Positions 3,259 through 30,975 of a stretch of 35,263 nucleotides of DNA are shown piece by piece. Numbering within the stretch: position 1 is the first letter of the stretch; every line of letters starts with the position of its first letter. The translations under genes were made by a program, and so were the position numbers. Under the pieces are notes generated by a model. That model saw only the letters and a list, made by a program, of their open reading frames with translations, was not told where the DNA came from and searched no databases. Source of the DNA: Bacteroidales bacterium (lineage in GTDB: Bacteria > Bacteroidota > Bacteroidia > Bacteroidales > UBA932); the NCBI GenBank assembly GCA_017454905.1, contig JAFTCB010000016.1, forward strand, positions 1-35,263, written 5' to 3'.

Positions 3259-3302
3259 TTACGAATTAACCTTCGGAGAAATCTCCGAAGGTTAATTCGT
3301 AA
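3259..3302. terminator. Perfect 21-bp inverted repeat between convergent genes
   Basis: Arms 3259-3279 and 3282-3302 are perfectly complementary with a 2-nt centre. The element lies between the ends of the DUF2271 gene (plus) and the aldolase gene (minus), so a bidirectional terminator is the simplest reading. The stem is unusually long and its outer half is AT-rich, giving U residues in both directions. Confidence 0.6.
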
Positions 3303-3324: not shown

Positions 3325-3392
3325 GGTCAAGCCGGGAATGACGGGAGGTCAAGCCGGCGAAAGACGGGAGGTCAGACCAGCGAGTGACGGGA
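3325..3392. repeat. Three-copy tandem array of a REP-like unit
   Basis: Three units of 22, 23 and 23 bp (3325-3346, 3347-3369, 3370-3392) each begin GGTCA and end GACGGGA. The first unit, GGTCAAGCCGGGAATGAC, is the same element found singly at 11909, 14440 and 23021. The array ends 17 bp before the 3' end of the aldolase gene. Confidence 0.65.
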
Positions 3393-3409: not shown

Positions 3410-4714
3410 CTACTCCCCGACGTGGAAGGCGACGCGGAGGTCTTCGACTTCCTTATCGGTGATCGGATGGAGTTTGCCGACCGGCGTGGCGAGGATCAGC
3501 GACTTGGCAGCGAACTCGGCGACTTCGAGGCGGTCGAAAGCGTTGATCAGGCTGTCGGAGGCCACGACCACAGAGTCATTGGCAAGCATCGCGCAGGGAC
3601 GGTTCTTGAAGACCTCGGCGACCTTGCCCGGATCGGTGACATGGGCGCCGAAGGGGAATTTCGGAACATCCTGCAAGAAAATCCAACTCTCCGGAATGGT
3701 CCGGACATTGAATTCCGCTTCCGTGGTGCAATAACCCATCAGGGACGGGCACTGCGTAAGGATGATCGCATTGACCTTGGGATTGCGGCGGTAGATCTCG
3801 TAGTGGAGTGCCGTAGCGTGGCTCGGGGTCTTGCCGGCCTCGGCCATACCGTCCTTGATCTGGACGAGGTCCTCCTCGTCAATGTCCCAGCGCTGCACAC
3901 CCGGAGGCGTGATCACGAAATCATTGCCGCGCCAGCGCATCGAGACAGTACCGTAGGAACTGCTCATCAGCTTCTGGTTGCAGGCGCGACGCACCATCCG
4001 CACGATCTCGGATCGCAGAGCGCGCTCGTCGGACGGATGTTCCACATTCATGAAGTGCTGGTAGTCGCCCACCAGATGATTCTCATGGAAGAGCAGCTCC
4101 TCCTCGGTGAGGTAGTGCGGCTCGCCCAGGGTCTTGGCATTGAGAATCGTGCGGGCGCAGAGTTCGAGGGTCTCGAAACGCTGGTAAGCGTCGGCGATGT
4201 CCTCGCCGCAGAGCACCACACCGTGATTCTCCATGATCACGGCCTTGTAGTCCGGATTCTTCTTGAACTCGCCGGCGATCTTCTCGCCCAGGGCGGCGCT
4301 GCCCGGCACGTCATAGGGAGCAAAACCGATGGGGCCGCAGACATTGCGGGCCTGCGGAAGGATGCTCGTATCCGGAATCTGATGCACGATGCTGAAGGTC
4401 ACGAGTCCCGGAGGATGCGCGTGGATCACGGAATGCATCTTGGGGCGGATCTTGTAGATCGCTTTGTGGAAGGGGTACTCGGAGGACGGGCGGTGCGGGC
4501 CGACGATGGTGCCGTCCGCCTTGACGCACATGATGTCCTTGGCGGTGAGGGAACCCTTGTCGATACCGGCCGGGGTGATCCACATATCGCCATTCTCATC
4601 CATGATGGAGAGGTTGCCGCCGGAGGTCGTCGTGAGACCGCTGCGGTAGATCCGGCCGATGATCAGCGCAAGCTGTTCCGCCGGGTGCATCAATTTTGTG
4701 TTAAGTTGTTTCAT
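3410..4714 (-). CDS. Tandem class II aldolase/adducin-family protein
   Basis: A 434-residue protein with two aldolase-II domains. Domain 1 (about residues 10-210) looks competent: TTTSGGNLS phosphate-binding loop, PSSEYPFHK with the acidic residue that matches the catalytic Glu of fuculose-1-phosphate aldolase (about E79), HAHPP with two zinc-binding histidines (about H98 and H100), and ENHGVV with the third. Domain 2 (about 230-434) keeps the fold signature but has TQCPS in place of HAH and ANDSVV in place of NHG, so it should not bind zinc. The family cleaves or forms sugar 1-phosphates, or epimerises pentose phosphates; the substrate cannot be read here. The start at 4714 is preferred to 4747 because a -7 box at 4735-4742 lies between. 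Confidence 0.82.
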   Translation of the reverse strand: MKQLNTKLMHPAEQLALIIGRIYRSGLTTTSGGNLSIMDENGDMWITPAGIDKGSLTAKDIMCVKADGTIVGPHRPSSEYPFHKAIYKIRPKMHSVIHAHPPGLVTFSIVHQIPDTSILPQARNVCGPIGFAPYDVPGSAALGEKIAGEFKKNPDYKAVIMENHGVVLCGEDIADAYQRFETLELCARTILNAKTLGEPHYLTEEELLFHENHLVGDYQHFMNVEHPSDERALRSEIVRMVRRACNQKLMSSSYGTVSMRWRGNDFVITPPGVQRWDIDEEDLVQIKDGMAEAGKTPSHATALHYEIYRRNPKVNAIILTQCPSLMGYCTTEAEFNVRTIPESWIFLQDVPKFPFGAHVTDPGKVAEVFKNRPCAMLANDSVVVASDSLINAFDRLEVAEFAAKSLILATPVGKLHPITDKEVEDLRVAFHVGE

Positions 4715-4734
4715 ATCGCTTGTGTTTCCGTGTG

Positions 4735-4742
4735 CAAAGGTA
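4735..4742 (-). promoter_or_regulatory. -7 box of the aldolase gene
   Basis: TACCTTTG on the minus strand, an exact TAnnTTTG match, 20 nt upstream of the ATG at 4714. It lies in the 55-bp gap after lplA, so the aldolase can be expressed apart from the upstream operon. Confidence 0.55.
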
Positions 4743-4769
4743 AGCAATCTTGGCCAAAAAGGCGAAATA

Positions 4770-5726
4770 TTAAACGCCGAATATCAGTGCCAGCAACTCC
4801 GGCGTCCCGACGCCGTCGAAATAACGGGACGGATCCGCCTGCGCCAGGACGCCCTGCAGGACGCTGCGCTCGAAACGCAGGCCCGCCAGGCGCTCCGCCA
4901 GTTCCGAGGCCGGCAGGCCGCCGAGGAAATCTCCCCCGAACTCCACCGCCGCCAGGATACCGTGATCCAGGGAAATCCGGACCTCGACCGTCCCGCAGGC
5001 CAGGCGGCCGCTGCGGACCAGGTCCGCGGCCTTCGACTGGCCGTATATCCACTCCCAGGTGGAGAATTTTCCGTCGGAAATGCGCTGCACGGCGGCACGC
5101 CGCTCTTCCCCGAAGGGAAGCTCCCCGTCGCCGGCCGAAAGGATTTCCTGCAGGGCATCCTGCAGGCCGTCCAGGGAGGAGAACTGCGGCAGGAAGTCCT
5201 TGAGATTCGCCACGCGGCTCTTGACGGATGCGATCCCCTTGGCCTCCAGCTTGGAGCCGGGGACATCCAGCACATGCGTGAGCGTGTCCAGGTCCACGTC
5301 GTACATCAGCGTCCCGTGGACGATCTGCCGGTCATGCCAGACGCGGCGGGCATAGCCTGAAACCTTGCGGCCCTGCACGTAGATATCGTTGCGGCCCGTC
5401 AGCTCCGCCGGCACGCCGAGCAGGCGCAGCGCGTCCGCCACCGGCTGCGGCGTTACCTCCTTCCCGATCAAGGTATAATTTAGGTTCTGCAGATCGTGAT
5501 AGACGGCACCGCCGCCCGTCACCCGGCGCGCCAGGCGGATGCCATGCGCCTCCAGATAGCCCAGGTTGACCTCGCTGTACGCGTTCTGGTTGAGCCCGAT
5601 GATGACCGAAGGGCGGTTGCGCCACAGATAGAAATAGTTGTCGTCCGACAAATACTGCTCCAGGCAGTACTCGTCGAACGACATATTATACCAGGGGTCG
5701 GTCGAAGGGTTTTTCAGGAACCGCAT
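4770..5726 (-). CDS. lplA: Lipoate--protein ligase A
   Basis: A 318-residue cytoplasmic enzyme that activates lipoate with ATP and attaches it to lipoyl domains of 2-oxoacid dehydrogenases or glycine cleavage H protein. Family motifs: NPSTDPWYNMSFDEY at the start, RNRPSVIIGLNQN, ARRVTGGGAVYHDLQNLNYT with the lipoate-binding GGGAVYHD, and KVSGYARRVWHDRQIVHGTL with the substrate-binding Lys and His. Length fits the two-domain LplA. The ATG at 5726 is chosen because the family's N-terminal MRFLKNP begins there and GGAGGGG lies about 8 nt upstream; the in-frame sequence further upstream belongs to the SIS gene. It follows the SIS gene by 16 bp. Confidence 0.9.
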   Translation of the reverse strand: MRFLKNPSTDPWYNMSFDEYCLEQYLSDDNYFYLWRNRPSVIIGLNQNAYSEVNLGYLEAHGIRLARRVTGGGAVYHDLQNLNYTLIGKEVTPQPVADALRLLGVPAELTGRNDIYVQGRKVSGYARRVWHDRQIVHGTLMYDVDLDTLTHVLDVPGSKLEAKGIASVKSRVANLKDFLPQFSSLDGLQDALQEILSAGDGELPFGEERRAAVQRISDGKFSTWEWIYGQSKAADLVRSGRLACGTVEVRISLDHGILAAVEFGGDFLGGLPASELAERLAGLRFERSVLQGVLAQADPSRYFDGVGTPELLALIFGV

Positions 5727-5742
5727 GCGCTCGCCCCTCCGA

Positions 5743-6753
5743 CTACATCTCGTTGCCGACCTTGCGGGCGCGCTCCGGCTTGTCGAGGTTGATGCCGTCG
5801 CTGGAAGCCACCTCCACGAGGATGTTCCAACCTGCGCACAGATAGACATACGGCTGCATCAGGCCGGCATCCGGGACGATGATCGTCCGCTCGAACGGGG
5901 TCTCCTTGGTGTCGATCGCGACCACGTGCACACCGGCGCCCTTGAAGACGGTCTGGAACTTCTCGTACTCGGCCGGGATCGGGTTGACCAGGAACACGAT
6001 GTCGCCTTCCTGCATCACTTCCTCGATACCGTGGACGGCGTAAGTGCCCTCCAGGAAATCGCTCTTGCGGCGGGTAATCTCGTTGGTCTTGAGGGTCAGC
6101 TCCTCGGCCACGCCGTCGTTATAGCCGCTGAAATAGATCGTATGGGCACCCTTGACCCACTCCACGATCTCGGCGGGGATCTTCTGGGTCAGCGCGGTCT
6201 CCAGCTGGGCCGGGAGATCCTTCAGGGCCGGCTTCATGTCCTTGCCGGCGAGATGCCAGAAGATGGATTCGCAGAACAGACCCTGCTCGATCACGCTCTT
6301 GGTGGCGGCGACCGCCTCCTCCCAACCGCAGCCGAGCACATGGCCGTCCACGCAGGCCTGGCGGATCGGCGTGTCCGGATTGGCGCTCAGGGCGAAGGTA
6401 TCCTTGTGGCCCGCGGCCTGCAGTTTCCTGGCCAGCATCAGGGCCTCCTTGGTACGGCCCGAGTTGGAGTCGATCAGCACGGTGTAGTGGCTCAGGTCAT
6501 ACTGGCCGGCCTGATGCGACCCGTCGATCTGCACGTTCACGTCGAGACCCATCGTCATCGCGACGCGACGGCTGTTCTTGGCCGGGAGCAGGCGGGAAGA
6601 GCCCTCGCCGGAGAACAGGATCTTACCGGTCTTGCGGACGGAGTCCGCGACAAACTTGGAGCAATCAGGATCGAACTTCGCCACGGTAGGGACGGTTCCC
6701 ATCATCTCCTGCACCAGATAGTACTGGGCATACTTGCTTTCATTCAGATTCAT
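5743..6753 (-). CDS. SIS-domain phosphosugar isomerase-like protein
   Basis: A 336-residue protein with two SIS domains, arranged like the isomerase half of glucosamine-6-phosphate synthase and like AgaS/FrlB deaminases. Visible: ILFSGEGSSR and the SNSGRTKEAL phosphosugar-binding loop in the first domain, FSGYNDGVAEE and a second loop in the other, and a C-terminal DKPERARKVGNEM that matches the GlmS-type end ending in a conserved lysine region. There is no glutaminase domain. The family isomerises or deaminates aldose/ketose or amino-sugar phosphates; the exact substrate is unknown. The gene is 16 bp from DUF4954 upstream and 16 bp from lplA downstream, so the three form one operon. Confidence 0.8.
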   Translation of the reverse strand: MNLNESKYAQYYLVQEMMGTVPTVAKFDPDCSKFVADSVRKTGKILFSGEGSSRLLPAKNSRRVAMTMGLDVNVQIDGSHQAGQYDLSHYTVLIDSNSGRTKEALMLARKLQAAGHKDTFALSANPDTPIRQACVDGHVLGCGWEEAVAATKSVIEQGLFCESIFWHLAGKDMKPALKDLPAQLETALTQKIPAEIVEWVKGAHTIYFSGYNDGVAEELTLKTNEITRRKSDFLEGTYAVHGIEEVMQEGDIVFLVNPIPAEYEKFQTVFKGAGVHVVAIDTKETPFERTIIVPDAGLMQPYVYLCAGWNILVEVASSDGINLDKPERARKVGNEM

Positions 6754-6769
6754 AGTAATTTTTTGTCAA

Positions 6770-8974
6770 TTAAATACGCAGACGCAACTCCTCGAGGCGC
6801 TTCAGGTTGGTCTCGGTCTCCGAACGGATCTGCCGGACGAAGCTGTTCTCTTCCAGCGGTCCGATCGCGGCGGTCATCTCCTCGGCATTGCGGTAGGTGG
6901 CCTGACGGAAAGGATTCTCGTAATCTTTCTTCCGGGTCTGGTAGACCTGGTCGCAGATGTAACGCTGGATACGCTCTTCCTCGCGGATGACCTGACTCCA
7001 GGCCGCGGCGTCCAAATGGTCGAGCCCCATCAAATCGCACAGCGAGAGATAGGCATGACGCAATTTGTCGACGGGATAGCGCCTCCAGATGTCATTGTAC
7101 CGCTTGTGGATGTCCTTCCAGGACGCCAGTTTCCCGCTCCGGATATCGGCGCGGAGACGGTCGAACTCGGTCTCCGTCATCAGCTGGCCTCCCAGGTTGA
7201 TCCACTCGCGCTGACGGCGGCTCTTGAGAAATGCAGACAGGGAGGTGAAAGTCTCTCCGGGATTGGCTTCCAGGTATTCCATCGCGTTGGTCATGGCATA
7301 ATGCACGAGCATATCGCCATACGCGTGATACGCACGCCAGGGCCTGCGGATGAGGACTTTCCTTGAACTCTTCTCCATGCCTTCGCCGAAAATCTCAAGG
7401 GCGTCAACGGTCTTGGAGTCTCCGTCGAGCAATTCGCGGCCCTTAGCCCGCAGCTGCTCTTCTTTGAGGTTGTCGAAGGGAATATTCTCGTTCCGGTACC
7501 ACGCCTTGGCCGTCCAGAGTTCCAGCAGCGCGCGGGCCTGGATGACCTCCTCCATGCTGTCGGGGGCGAAGGTATCGAATTCGATGTTCTGGGTCTTGGT
7601 GATCCGCTTGTCGCGGGTCTTGTATTTCCAATTGTTGCGCGCCAGCGCATACATGTTGTGGCTCCACCAGAAGGCCGGAGCGACTTCCAGCCGGTCCTCT
7701 TTGGCATTGTTGCTCAGCAGCGAGAACGGGAGGGGGATGTTCAGTTCGGCCGGATAGTCGGCTTTGGCGAGCAGGGTGTAGCTGGCGAATTTGCTGGAAT
7801 GCTTGATGCTCGAGCACAGGCCCGGCCAGAAACCACGGCCCGCCACGACCTCGTTGTCGTTGGTGCGGCTGTTGTGGTTGGAACCGATGGTGGCGCCGGC
7901 CGCCATGTTACTCTGTCCCTTGACGCACGCGGCGATCAGGAAGGAGTTGTTGTGGTGCTGCTCGTGCGCCGGGAAGATGAGGTTGTGGAGCACCTCGCAG
8001 CAGGAAATGGTGCTGTTGTCCCCGAGGACGGAGTTGATCAGGCGCGCGCCGAACTTGAGGGCGCTGTTGTTGCCGATGACGAAGCGGATGGCCGTGCAGG
8101 AATAGAAGACACGGCTGCCGTATCCCATGATGCCGTTGACCATGATGACGTTTTCGCCGATCTGGGACGGCTCCTTCTCGGAGGAATTGATGGTGATGTT
8201 CTTGAGCTTGCTGGCGCCTTTGATGTAGCAGGCGGGGCCGATCTTGGCATCCTTCAGGATGGAGGAATTCTTGATCACGCAGCCCTCGCCGACCGTCCCG
8301 TAATAGCCGCGGTGGCTGTCCACCGAAGCCTGGGTCATCTCCCGGAGCCGCTCCTGGAGCGGGGCGTCGTCGATGTATTTGGCCCACATATAAGCGTCGG
8401 CCGTGGTCATCCCGTCGAAAGGATACACCGCCCGGCACCCGGTCTCGTTCATCACTTCGATCGTCACGCGGACGCTCTCCGGCTCGCCGTCCTTGACGAT
8501 GCCGTTGCCGAACTTGGAGTGGTCCGTGGTGCACATTTCCTCGATGTTGAACAGCATGCAGCGGTCGCCGATGATGTAGTGGCTGAGGTAGTGCACGTCG
8601 TGGATGGCGCAATCGTCTCCGATGTCGCAGGAGTGGATCGAGGAGTTGGTGATGCCGATGGGCAGGCGCAGGTCATGGAACTGGAGGCCGTTCTCGCTGA
8701 CGCGCCCGATGCGCACGGTACCGTAGAACTTGTTGTTCTTGAGCATCTGGGGACGGAACTCGTCGGTGACGAAGATGGTGTCCCAGCTGGAAGCCGTGTT
8801 GTCATTCTTGACCAGGCGCTCGATCTCGTCGCTGGTGAGGTGCCGCCAACCGCCGCGCGGCTTGCGGACCTGGCGGTTGCGAAGATAATATTTATCCTTC
8901 CCTTCGGGAAGATACACCGGGTCGATCCAACCGTTGATGAGCTTTTCAGGAGGCAGAACGGTAACTTTTTCCAT
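6770..8974 (-). CDS. DUF4954 family left-handed beta-helix protein
   Basis: A 734-residue protein that matches the DUF4954 family as I recall it, with an extra C-terminal helical region (about 540-734). Residues about 100-420 carry many imperfect hexapeptide turns (for example SSIHSCDIGDDCAIHD, VGEGCVIKNSSILKDAKIG and IGENVIMVNG) typical of the left-handed beta-helix of acyl- and nucleotidyl-transferase-like proteins. Family function is undescribed. There is no signal peptide, so it is probably cytoplasmic. It is the first gene of an operon with a SIS isomerase-like gene and lplA and has the best promoter of the area. A sugar-modifying or sugar-sensing role is inference from fold and neighbours only. 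Confidence 0.8.
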   Translation of the reverse strand: MEKVTVLPPEKLINGWIDPVYLPEGKDKYYLRNRQVRKPRGGWRHLTSDEIERLVKNDNTASSWDTIFVTDEFRPQMLKNNKFYGTVRIGRVSENGLQFHDLRLPIGITNSSIHSCDIGDDCAIHDVHYLSHYIIGDRCMLFNIEEMCTTDHSKFGNGIVKDGEPESVRVTIEVMNETGCRAVYPFDGMTTADAYMWAKYIDDAPLQERLREMTQASVDSHRGYYGTVGEGCVIKNSSILKDAKIGPACYIKGASKLKNITINSSEKEPSQIGENVIMVNGIMGYGSRVFYSCTAIRFVIGNNSALKFGARLINSVLGDNSTISCCEVLHNLIFPAHEQHHNNSFLIAACVKGQSNMAAGATIGSNHNSRTNDNEVVAGRGFWPGLCSSIKHSSKFASYTLLAKADYPAELNIPLPFSLLSNNAKEDRLEVAPAFWWSHNMYALARNNWKYKTRDKRITKTQNIEFDTFAPDSMEEVIQARALLELWTAKAWYRNENIPFDNLKEEQLRAKGRELLDGDSKTVDALEIFGEGMEKSSRKVLIRRPWRAYHAYGDMLVHYAMTNAMEYLEANPGETFTSLSAFLKSRRQREWINLGGQLMTETEFDRLRADIRSGKLASWKDIHKRYNDIWRRYPVDKLRHAYLSLCDLMGLDHLDAAAWSQVIREEERIQRYICDQVYQTRKKDYENPFRQATYRNAEEMTAAIGPLEENSFVRQIRSETETNLKRLEELRLRI

Positions 8975-9000: not shown

Positions 9001-9031
9001 CAAATTTACGGATTCCCGCTTTTTTCTCAAA
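9001..9031 (-). promoter_or_regulatory. Promoter of the DUF4954 operon
   Basis: On the minus strand TTTG (9028-9031) and TAAATTTG (9001-9008) are separated by 19 bp, a full match to the Bacteroidetes housekeeping promoter. The -7 box lies 26 nt before the ATG at 8974. Confidence 0.75.
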
Positions 9032-28067: not shown

Positions 28068-29021
28068 ATGGAGAAGAAAAGCATCTATGTCATCTACGAC
28101 CGGAATGTAGAGGCTTTCGCGCTGAAACTCGCCGAAGGACGCCCCGCCCTGGCCATCACCGCGGACGAAGAACACAAGACGATGGATACCGTCCTGGAGA
28201 TCTGCCGCTGGCTGCTTGCACAGGGCGCGAACCGGGACGCGATCGTCTGGGCCGTGGGCGGCGGCGTGACCACCGACATGGCCGGATTCGCCGCCAGCAT
28301 CTACAAGCGCGGGATCCGCTATGCCAACTACCCCACCACCCTGCTCAGCCAGGTGGATGCCGGCGTAGGCGGCAAGACGGGAGTCAACCTGGACGGCTTC
28401 AAGAACATGATCGGCGTGACGAAATTCCCGATCTACACCCGCATCCTTCCGGAAGTCCTGCAGACCCTGCCCCCGCGCGAACTCCGCTCCGGCGCGGCCG
28501 AGATGCTCAAGACCTTCATCATCGAAAACAAGAACGGCCACTACGAGAAGGCCGTCAAGGTCCTCTCCGAGCCGGAGATCGATTTCGCGGCGCTCGCGCC
28601 CCTGATCGAGGCCGCCGCCGACGTCAAGCGCAAGATCGTGGAGCTGGACCCCTATGAGGAGAACCTCCGCCGCACCCTCAACCTGGGCCACACCTACGCC
28701 CATGCCATCGAATGGTACCAGCACACCCACGACGCGGACGATCCGCTGACGCACGGCGAGGCCGTCGCCGTCGGCATCGTACAGGCCGCCCTGCTCTCCG
28801 AGCGCCTGGGCCTCTGCAAGGAAGGCCTTGCGGAGCAGCTCCGCCGCGACCTGCACGCCTGCGGTCTCCCGACGGAGCTACCCTGCCCGCAGGAAGCCCT
28901 GGAGGACGCCCTCTGGAAAGACAAGAAAGCCGAAAAAGGCATCATCCACTTTGTCCTGATCAAGAAGATCGGCAAGGTGATAATCAAAGACCTGGATGAT
29001 TTGCACCAGCCTACAGAATAA
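28068..29021 (+). CDS. aroB: 3-dehydroquinate synthase
   Basis: A 317-residue enzyme that turns DAHP into 3-dehydroquinate, step two of the shikimate pathway. NAD-binding GGGVTTDMAGFAAS, substrate loop QVDAGVGGKTGVNLDGFKN, zinc ligands Glu in SGAAEMLK, His in LNLGHTYAHAIE and His in LTHGEAVAVG are all present, so it should be active. It is some 30-40 residues shorter than usual AroB (about 350-360), mainly at the N-terminus. Its last 26 bp overlap the next gene, the aroD-aroA fusion. Confidence 0.92.
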   Translation: MEKKSIYVIYDRNVEAFALKLAEGRPALAITADEEHKTMDTVLEICRWLLAQGANRDAIVWAVGGGVTTDMAGFAASIYKRGIRYANYPTTLLSQVDAGVGGKTGVNLDGFKNMIGVTKFPIYTRILPEVLQTLPPRELRSGAAEMLKTFIIENKNGHYEKAVKVLSEPEIDFAALAPLIEAAADVKRKIVELDPYEENLRRTLNLGHTYAHAIEWYQHTHDADDPLTHGEAVAVGIVQAALLSERLGLCKEGLAEQLRRDLHACGLPTELPCPQEALEDALWKDKKAEKGIIHFVLIKKIGKVIIKDLDDLHQPTE

Positions 29022-30975
29022 GACCTTCGAGCAGATCCTCGAGATCCTCGAAGACCCCGCGGTCGAGATGGCGGAGATCCGCCTGGACCGCTGCCCCCTC
29101 ACGGACGAACAGATCGAAGAACTCTTCAGCGATTCCGACACGCCGCTCATCGCGACCTGCCGCATCGCGGAATCCGCCTCGGCCCGGGAAGCGGAGCGGC
29201 GGCTGCGCATCGCCATCGAGGCGGGCGCCCGCTTCGCCGACCTGGAGATCGAGGCCCCCGTGCAGATGAGCAAGGATTTCCAGCGGCTCTGCCGCAAAAA
29301 CGGCACCGAGATCATCCGTTCCTGGCACAATTTCGAGGACACGCCGGGCACCGAAGTCCTGCAGATGGCCCTGGCCCGCTGCTTCCGCTATGGAGCGGAC
29401 ATCGCCAAAATCGTGACGAGCTGCCGCGACGAAGCGGATGCCGCTCAGATCGAATCCCTCTATGCCTGCGTACTGGAGGGCGTGGATTCCCTGCAGGGCC
29501 GGCTGGTGGCCTTCGGCATGGGCGAAGCCGGCCGGCAGACCCGCATCGAATGCCTGCGGCGCGGCGCCCCCTTCACCTACGCCGCCCTCACGGCACAAGA
29601 GGCGACCGCCCCCGGACAATGGTCCACGGCAGAGATGCACGCCGCCATTTACGGCGACCGCCGGGCCTACCGGGCAGCCGGTCGGCAGATGCCCGCCTCC
29701 AAGAGTTTCGCGCAGCGCGCCATCCTCGCCGCCGCCCTCGCGGAAGGGAGTTCGCACCTGCGGGGTTACAGTCCCTGCGGCGACTCCGAAGCCGCCCTGC
29801 GCGTTGCGGAAGCCCTCGGCGCCAAGGTCGTCAAAGAAGGCTCCGACCTGACCATCACCGGCATCGGCGCCCGCTGCCGCCAGCTGACGCTGGACCGGCT
29901 GGACACGGGCGAATCCGGACTGCTGACACGCCTGTGCGTCCCGGTGCTCGCCGCCGTCGGGCCGGGAGACTTTACCGTGGAAGGCCACGGGACGCTGCTG
30001 CAGCGCCCGCTGGGCGGCGCCGCGGACATCATGGCCGCCTTCGGCGTGCTGCTCGGCAACACCGGCAGCCGCGAGGGCAAGGAGATCTACGTCCCGCTCA
30101 GCGTCAAGGGGCACCTGATCCCGGGCACGGCCGATGTGCCGGGCAAGGGCGGCTCGCAGCTCATTTCCGGCCTGCTGATGGCCCTGCCGCTCTGCGACAA
30201 GGATTCCCAGCTGCACGTCAGCGACCCCAAGAGCATTCCCTACATGTACATCACGCTCGATGTGCTGCGCCACTTCGGCATCCAGACGCGCAGCGAGATG
30301 GAAGGCGACGCACAGCTGCTGGAAGCCGAGGACTGGTCTTCCTGCACCGGCATCAGCTTCAAGGTACGCGGCCGGCAGCACTACCGCTCCGCGGATTTCG
30401 CCATCGAAGGCGACTGGAGCGCCGCCGCCAACCTGCTTGTGGCGGGGGCCGTGTTCGGCTCCGCCGAGCTCGTCGGGATGGACACCAAATCGCTGCAGGC
30501 CGACCTGACCATCATCGACATCCTGGTCGAAGCCGGTGCGGTCGTCTCCCAGCTGGAGGAGGGCACGGTCTGCGTCCGGAAAGCCCCGCTGGAAGCCTTC
30601 CACCAGGACCTCAACAACGCCCCGGACCTCTTCCCCATCGTGGCCGTGCTGGCCGCGTTCTGCGCCGGGGAATCCCGCATCGGCGGTGTCGGCAGGCTTG
30701 CCGCCAAGGAGTCCAACCGGGCGGAGGCCATCCTGCAAATGCTGCAGCAGATGGGGGTGGAAGCCGGTATCCAGGGCGACGAGCTCGTCGTCTTCGGAGA
30801 ATCCCTCACCGCCCGCCTGCTCAACGGACGCCTGCTCAAAGGCGGCGAATACACTTCGCGCCACGACCACCGCATGGTCATGGCGCTCAAAGTGGCCTCC
30901 CTGGGAACAGAAAGCCCCATCGTCATCGACGATGAGGCTTGCGTCGGGAAATCCTTCCCGGGGTTCAGGCTTTAA
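28996..30975 (+). CDS. Fused 3-dehydroquinate dehydratase (type I) and EPSP synthase
   Basis: A 659-residue bifunctional shikimate-pathway protein. Residues about 1-220 are type I AroD: AEIRLDRCPL, catalytic His111 in SWHNFEDTP, Schiff-base Lys138 in ADIAKIVTS (spacing 27, as in E. coli H143/K170) and TYAALTAQEATAPGQW. Residues about 225-659 are AroA: PASKSFAQRAI, GESGLLTR in place of the usual NAGT motif, PGKGGSQLISGLL, EGDWSAAANLL, DLFPIVAVLAA, RLAAKESNRAEAI and HDHRMVMALKVA. Shikimate dehydrogenase, the step between, and shikimate kinase are absent from the fusion. The start overlaps aroB by 26 bp in another frame. The two enzymes normally sit in separate proteins in bacteria. Confidence 0.9.
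   Translation: MICTSLQNKTFEQILEILEDPAVEMAEIRLDRCPLTDEQIEELFSDSDTPLIATCRIAESASAREAERRLRIAIEAGARFADLEIEAPVQMSKDFQRLCRKNGTEIIRSWHNFEDTPGTEVLQMALARCFRYGADIAKIVTSCRDEADAAQIESLYACVLEGVDSLQGRLVAFGMGEAGRQTRIECLRRGAPFTYAALTAQEATAPGQWSTAEMHAAIYGDRRAYRAAGRQMPASKSFAQRAILAAALAEGSSHLRGYSPCGDSEAALRVAEALGAKVVKEGSDLTITGIGARCRQLTLDRLDTGESGLLTRLCVPVLAAVGPGDFTVEGHGTLLQRPLGGAADIMAAFGVLLGNTGSREGKEIYVPLSVKGHLIPGTADVPGKGGSQLISGLLMALPLCDKDSQLHVSDPKSIPYMYITLDVLRHFGIQTRSEMEGDAQLLEAEDWSSCTGISFKVRGRQHYRSADFAIEGDWSAAANLLVAGAVFGSAELVGMDTKSLQADLTIIDILVEAGAVVSQLEEGTVCVRKAPLEAFHQDLNNAPDLFPIVAVLAAFCAGESRIGGVGRLAAKESNRAEAILQMLQQMGVEAGIQGDELVVFGESLTARLLNGRLLKGGEYTSRHDHRMVMALKVASLGTESPIVIDDEACVGKSFPGFRL

Follow-up and report, generated by a model that had tools for sequence, protein, structure and literature searches.

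What is the role of a DUF4954 protein whose gene stands beside those of a SIS protein, a lipoate-protein ligase and a class II aldolase? The question is raised by contig JAFTCB010000016.1 (assembly GCA_017454905.1) of a Bacteroidales bacterium, all 35,263 nucleotides of which were analysed and are referred to here as the window. The four genes follow one another on the minus strand in the order DUF4954, SIS, lplA and tandem aldolase. We tentatively read DUF4954 as a glucosamine-phosphate N-acetyltransferase that would replace or duplicate the second activity of GlmU, and put the chances of this assignment a little below even. Because the gene has enzymes of glucosamine-6-phosphate (GlcN-6-P) as neighbours and the protein has a GlmU-like active site, it may supply a step in the formation of cell-wall sugars. 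No function was given for DUF4954, or for the DUF6819 family found at its C-terminus, in the titles and abstract beginnings searched. The host genome (G000; 2.4 Mb, 82% complete) has a single match to PF16314, the DUF4954 model.

Genes that recur beside DUF4954

The DUF4954 protein of the window (734 aa; 6770-8974, minus strand) falls into the long of two sets of DUF4954 hits. Members of the long set are about 705-765 aa (two are shorter) and share 46-66% identity with the window protein. Those of the classic set are mostly about 660 aa and share 25-30% identity with it. The two sets were aligned across 623 columns using hhalign. The match in G008, of the same genus as the window, is of the classic kind alone and that in G000 of the long kind alone, so within a genus one type seems to take the place of the other.

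Neighbouring genes were surveyed at 149 other DUF4954 loci by tblastn, using the window proteins and NagB and GlmS proteins from the loci. Searches of the order and phylum supplied 69 loci (L032-L100), leaving out a 3 kb contig in G079, a weak match in G401, an additional piece in G252 and hits that scored below cut-off. The remaining loci (L101-L180) are the best 80 of at least 564 confirmed relatives and, because they were picked by best score, over-represent relatives of the window. Flanks ranged from 0 to 9 kb, and a neighbour was counted if it was on the same strand and no more than 520 bp away.

GlmS, NagB or SIS adjoins DUF4954 at 81 of the 149 loci (70 of 138 after clustering at 90% identity). 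At the 107 loci of the long type, GlmS is upstream in 34, SIS downstream in 22 and NagB downstream in 14, with none of these in 37. The 42 classic loci have NagB (nine), GlmS (two) or none (31). NagB and SIS share one downstream slot. Among the other 68 loci, one of the three genes was found elsewhere in the flanks in five. When 80 named loci were sorted by phylum, a GlcN-6-P enzyme adjoined in Bacteroidota (46/60), Planctomycetota (5/9), Calditrichota (1/1) and Pseudomonadota (1/1), and in none of seven Spirochaetota loci or two from other groups. GlmS adjoins DUF4954 in Chitinophaga and others.

The recurring unit is DUF4954 with a GlcN-6-P enzyme, not DUF4954 with an aldolase. The sequence-only reading had assigned the DUF4954 protein, the SIS protein and the aldolase to one sugar phosphate. 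Its first half fits: the DUF4954-SIS pair recurs at 22 of the 149 other loci and most likely acts on one sugar phosphate, itself most likely GlcN-6-P. The link to the aldolase, which does not recur in this way, fails. The DUF4954-SIS pair was also identified in Planctomycetota (L118, L125, L137, L138 and L141), where identity to the window protein is 58-63%; this points to transfer of the pair from one phylum to another. In Treponema pallidum, one study lists DUF4954 beside a prolipoprotein diacylglyceryl transferase gene (PMC6953169).

The SIS protein (336 aa; 5743-6753, minus strand) has PF01380 as its sole Pfam match (31.3 bits, cut-off 25), and no glutaminase domain was identified by this search. 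It resembles NagB-II/GlmD and the isomerase domain of GlmS in keeping eight of the ten GlmS positions compared. With residues numbered as in E. coli GlmS, all 23 aligned SIS proteins share S303, S347, S349, T352, E481, E488, H504 and K603. Among these are what we take to be the phosphate-binding Ser/Thr residues and the catalytic Glu488, His504 and Lys603. Among solved chains, 8eol (glucosamine-6-phosphate deaminase / GlmS-like; E 9e-5) matches best by sequence, and weak NCBIfam matches include GlmS, NagB-II and GlmD. However, the protein lacks a glutaminase domain, has Asn for Gln348 (23/23) and does not conserve Arg599, and its scores are far under the equivalog cut-offs of NagB-II and GlmS (32.1 bits against 430 for NagB-II NF046059). 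Since NagB takes this position in related genomes, SIS is most simply read as a GlcN-6-P deaminase/isomerase, isofunctional with NagB. The reaction could run either towards fructose-6-phosphate or towards GlcN-6-P. The host genome also encodes a full GlmS (G000:C42:10804-12642).

GlmS over cut-off was not found in seven of 60 genomes picked by DUF4954 status (G101, G082, G105, G098, G114, G102 and G056), all of which are DUF4954-positive. These organisms may form GlcN-6-P by reverse action of NagB, or import amino sugars.

Fold and active site of the DUF4954 protein

The window protein matches PF16314 at 208.8 bits (cut-off 26.2) and, at its C-terminus, PF20683 (DUF6819) at 26.3 bits (cut-off 23.5). 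Other Pfam matches are two weak ones of hexapeptide type, below cut-off. The structure model has a left-handed beta-helix over about residues 43-430, followed by a helical C-terminal domain (residues 428-734; 6773-7693, minus strand) for which the structure search found no confident solved relative, though one may still exist.

A proposed acetyltransferase active-site stretch lies at 7907-8044 on the minus strand. Here R311 (8042-8044), E327 (7994-7996), H341 (7952-7954) and N356 (7907-7909) match R333, E349, H363 and N377 of GlmU, which presumably serve in the active site of that enzyme. All 70 aligned sequences have E327, H341 and N356, and all 51 sequences of the long type have R311. The classic subfamily has exactly the GlmU spacing of Glu349, His363 and Asn377, and shares the wider pattern Glu(-14), His(0), Asn(+14), Gly(+16), Gly(+18) and Asn(+23). 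In the long subfamily, Glu and His are spaced exactly as in GlmU and Asn is shifted one residue further. A study of E. coli GlmU treats Asn377 and Tyr366 as glucosamine-1-phosphate contacts (PMC3146400). The results agree with the left-handed beta-helix of acyltransferase type that had been suggested from the sequence.

DUF4954 shares with the acetyltransferase domain of GlmU (TIGR01173/TIGR03991) both the left-handed beta-helix and gene links to GlcN-6-P enzymes. It differs in length (about 660-735 aa), in its helical C-terminal domain, and in that no uridylyltransferase domain was identified by Pfam search and no NCBIfam family matched at E 0.001 (GlmU models TIGR01173 and TIGR03991 included). 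Due to the missing domain and the missing family-model score, we place DUF4954 outside the GlmU family, while it appears to work like the acetyltransferase domain of GlmU.

In the mechanism that we propose, DUF4954 would acetylate GlcN-6-P or glucosamine-1-phosphate from acetyl-CoA in the manner of the second domain of GlmU, with the Glu-His pair as base and the conserved Asn holding the sugar. The partner gene would encode an enzyme that makes GlcN-6-P or uses it up, namely GlmS, NagB or (in the window) the SIS protein without glutaminase. GNA1, the eukaryotic GlcN-6-P N-acetyltransferase, is a GNAT-fold enzyme. DUF4954, with its beta-helix, would catalyse the same step if its substrate is GlcN-6-P.

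Distribution and state of GlmU

UDP-N-acetylglucosamine (UDP-GlcNAc) is required for peptidoglycan and lipid A. The alternative GlmU of Bacteroidota (TIGR03991) was nevertheless identified over cut-off in only 88 of 118 genomes of the order, which leaves 30 without it. DUF4954, present in 40 of the 118, occurs in 28 of the 30 genomes without TIGR03991 versus 12 of the 88 with it (Fisher p 1.8e-15, kinship ignored). One of the two exceptions, G089, encodes a GlmU-like protein that adjoins GlmS and whose acetyltransferase half matches GlmU; the other, G086, is a genome of 1.2 Mb. A phylum sample (n=392) shows a weaker trend in the same direction, with DUF4954 over cut-off in 9 of 34 genomes without TIGR03991 versus 24 of 358 with it (p 0.0008). 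A tree was built from the GlmS proteins of 39 genomes, all with GlmS and picked by DUF4954 status; along it, the presence of GlmU changes at least 11 times and that of DUF4954 nine times. Six independent pairs have GlmU in just one member; DUF4954 differs the opposite way in two to four of them and the same way in none, numbers that are too few for significance. In genomes where GlmU was not found, such as G000, acetylation on the way to UDP-GlcNAc would fall to DUF4954. If so, a family without a described function would join the enzymes of a central pathway, a missing step would be filled in many annotations, and UDP-GlcNAc synthesis in GlmU-less bacteria would become directly testable.

Other routes were considered. 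Canonical GlmU was over cut-off in none of the 60 genomes. A eukaryote-type route ending in UAP1 was dropped because PF01704 was over cut-off in only 2 of 62. Candidate nucleotidyltransferases for the last step occur both with and without GlmU, and none was assigned; a MurU-like protein, named by eye (G000:C42:113918-114694), is only a guess for this role. Tannerella forsythia is described in one report as lacking glmS and glmU (PMC5790795).

Several observations weigh against a DUF4954 acetyltransferase that stands in for GlmU. Genomes carrying both DUF4954 and GlmU exist, and 25 of the 392 phylum genomes have neither DUF4954 nor TIGR03991. For conversion of N-acetylglucosamine-1-phosphate to UDP-GlcNAc, no uridylyltransferase was identified in the GlmU-less genomes. 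The fold match is not specific to GlmU: 19 GlmU rows top the comparison, with QdtC and YdcK within 1 Z unit. In 20 DUF4954-positive genomes, the active-site His of the alternative GlmU is intact, and no decay specific to the acetyltransferase half was detected at sites that are invariant in DUF4954-negative genomes. The fractions of such sites kept in the acetyltransferase versus the nucleotidyltransferase half are 0.92 versus 0.92 in the order and 0.72 versus 0.60 in the other orders of the class. On these values a decay confined to the acetyltransferase half was rejected, as that half fares no worse than the other, or better. In DUF4954-positive Phycisphaerae (G513-G515), GlmU matches stop at or before model residue 317. 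However, among the matches listed for 150 genomes of the class, no GlmU extends past residue 361, whether DUF4954 is present or not. The truncation is independent of DUF4954 status and is a trait of the class, so it was discarded as support.

Two further observations concern GlmU itself. At the position 18 residues past the acetyltransferase His, 19 of 20 genes from genomes without DUF4954 encode Asp, versus 2 of 20 from genomes with it, the other 18 of which encode Gly or Asn (set L206-L245; kinship ignored). This shift may mark a change of substrate. Among the matches listed for the 150 Phycisphaerae genomes, no GlmU covers the acetyltransferase His; long DUF4954 was found in only 31 of the 150, and thus a further acetyltransferase is probably present in the class.

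The main rival explanation, which we consider unlikely, is that DUF4954 regulates the pathway, with the beta-helix binding UDP-GlcNAc or GlcN-6-P and the helical C-terminal domain controlling GlmS, NagB or SIS. This would suit a gene that adjoins a synthesis enzyme (GlmS) as well as enzymes that usually serve breakdown (NagB, SIS), and that coexists in many genomes with an alternative GlmU whose His is intact. The conserved helical domain, for which no solved relative was found, is a possible interaction surface. However, invariant Glu, His and Asn at GlmU spacing (in the classic subfamily) exceed the needs of a sensor, and genomes without GlmU are enriched in DUF4954.

We think it improbable that DUF4954 is an acyltransferase for a different amino sugar or sugar nucleotide, destined for envelope polysaccharide or lipid A, with neighbours that reflect precursor supply. 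QdtC, a sugar-nucleotide N-acetyltransferase, does tie with GlmU in the fold comparison (LpxD and LpxA are next), and two loci (L033 and L039, read by eye) lie among rml and UDP-sugar dehydrogenase genes. Yet the recurring neighbours are GlcN-6-P enzymes rather than those of one polysaccharide pathway, and the residue spacing follows that of GlmU, the one enzyme compared for this. That the tandem aldolase joins DUF4954 and SIS in acting on a single undescribed sugar phosphate is very improbable and largely refuted by the survey, for although the genes adjoin both here and in L101, the closest relative (aldolase 97% identical), L101 is the only one of the 149 other loci with the same aldolase by tblastn, and the aldolase has a promoter element of its own.

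If DUF4954 is a glucosamine-phosphate N-acetyltransferase, it could represent a further, undescribed class besides GlmU and GNA1 for bacteria without a GlmU acetyltransferase. Its gene would stand beside that of whichever enzyme controls the GlcN-6-P pool, and the helical C-terminal domain may couple the two proteins. We regard this extension, with a proposed range of many Bacteroidales and some Planctomycetota and Spirochaetota, as somewhat less likely than not.

Layout of the locus and other genes in the window

The gaps between DUF4954 and SIS (6754-6769) and between SIS and lplA (5727-5742) are 16 bp each. A Bacteroidota-type promoter, TTTG-N19-TAAATTTG, was identified ahead of DUF4954 (9001-9031, minus strand) by a pattern search of the window, in which TTTGN{17,23}TANNTTTG has five matches versus 0.09 expected. 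Coordinates and promoter agree with the earlier description of three evenly spaced genes behind a promoter. LplA (4770-5726, minus strand) matches TIGR00545 at 323.3 bits (cut-off 280). The match begins at residue 42 of a longer open reading frame, and the likely start is therefore the ATG at 5726. By tblastn, lplA is near DUF4954 in two of the 149 other loci, L101 and L159, which are the nearest relatives. This fits its suggested part as a bystander, and LplA is probably a local neighbour with a function unrelated to DUF4954.

The tandem class II aldolase/adducin protein (434 aa; 3410-4714, minus strand) matches PF00596 in two stretches (229 bits, cut-off 22.2). It has a -7 box, TACCTTTG, at 4735-4742 on the minus strand (17 pattern matches in the window versus 5.4 expected); no -33 box was identified by the TTTG pattern above. 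The two domains and the separate -7 box are as first described, and the gene is probably a unit separate from those of DUF4954. Domain 1 keeps HAH (residue 98) and ENHG (162), which we take to be zinc-ligand motifs. Domain 2 has LTQC (319) and LAND (377) at apparently matching places (matched by eye), and without the motifs of the first it looks like a degenerate copy, probably non-catalytic. At L094, tblastn identified a class II aldolase that is only distantly related (28% identity) and encoded on the opposite strand. Between the aldolase and a DUF2271 gene there is a long inverted repeat (approximately 3260-3302, by eye), followed by three copies of a 23-bp tandem repeat (3325-3392). Elsewhere in the window (28996-30975, plus strand), a single protein joins type I 3-dehydroquinase (residues 3-217) to EPSP synthase (residues 232-657).

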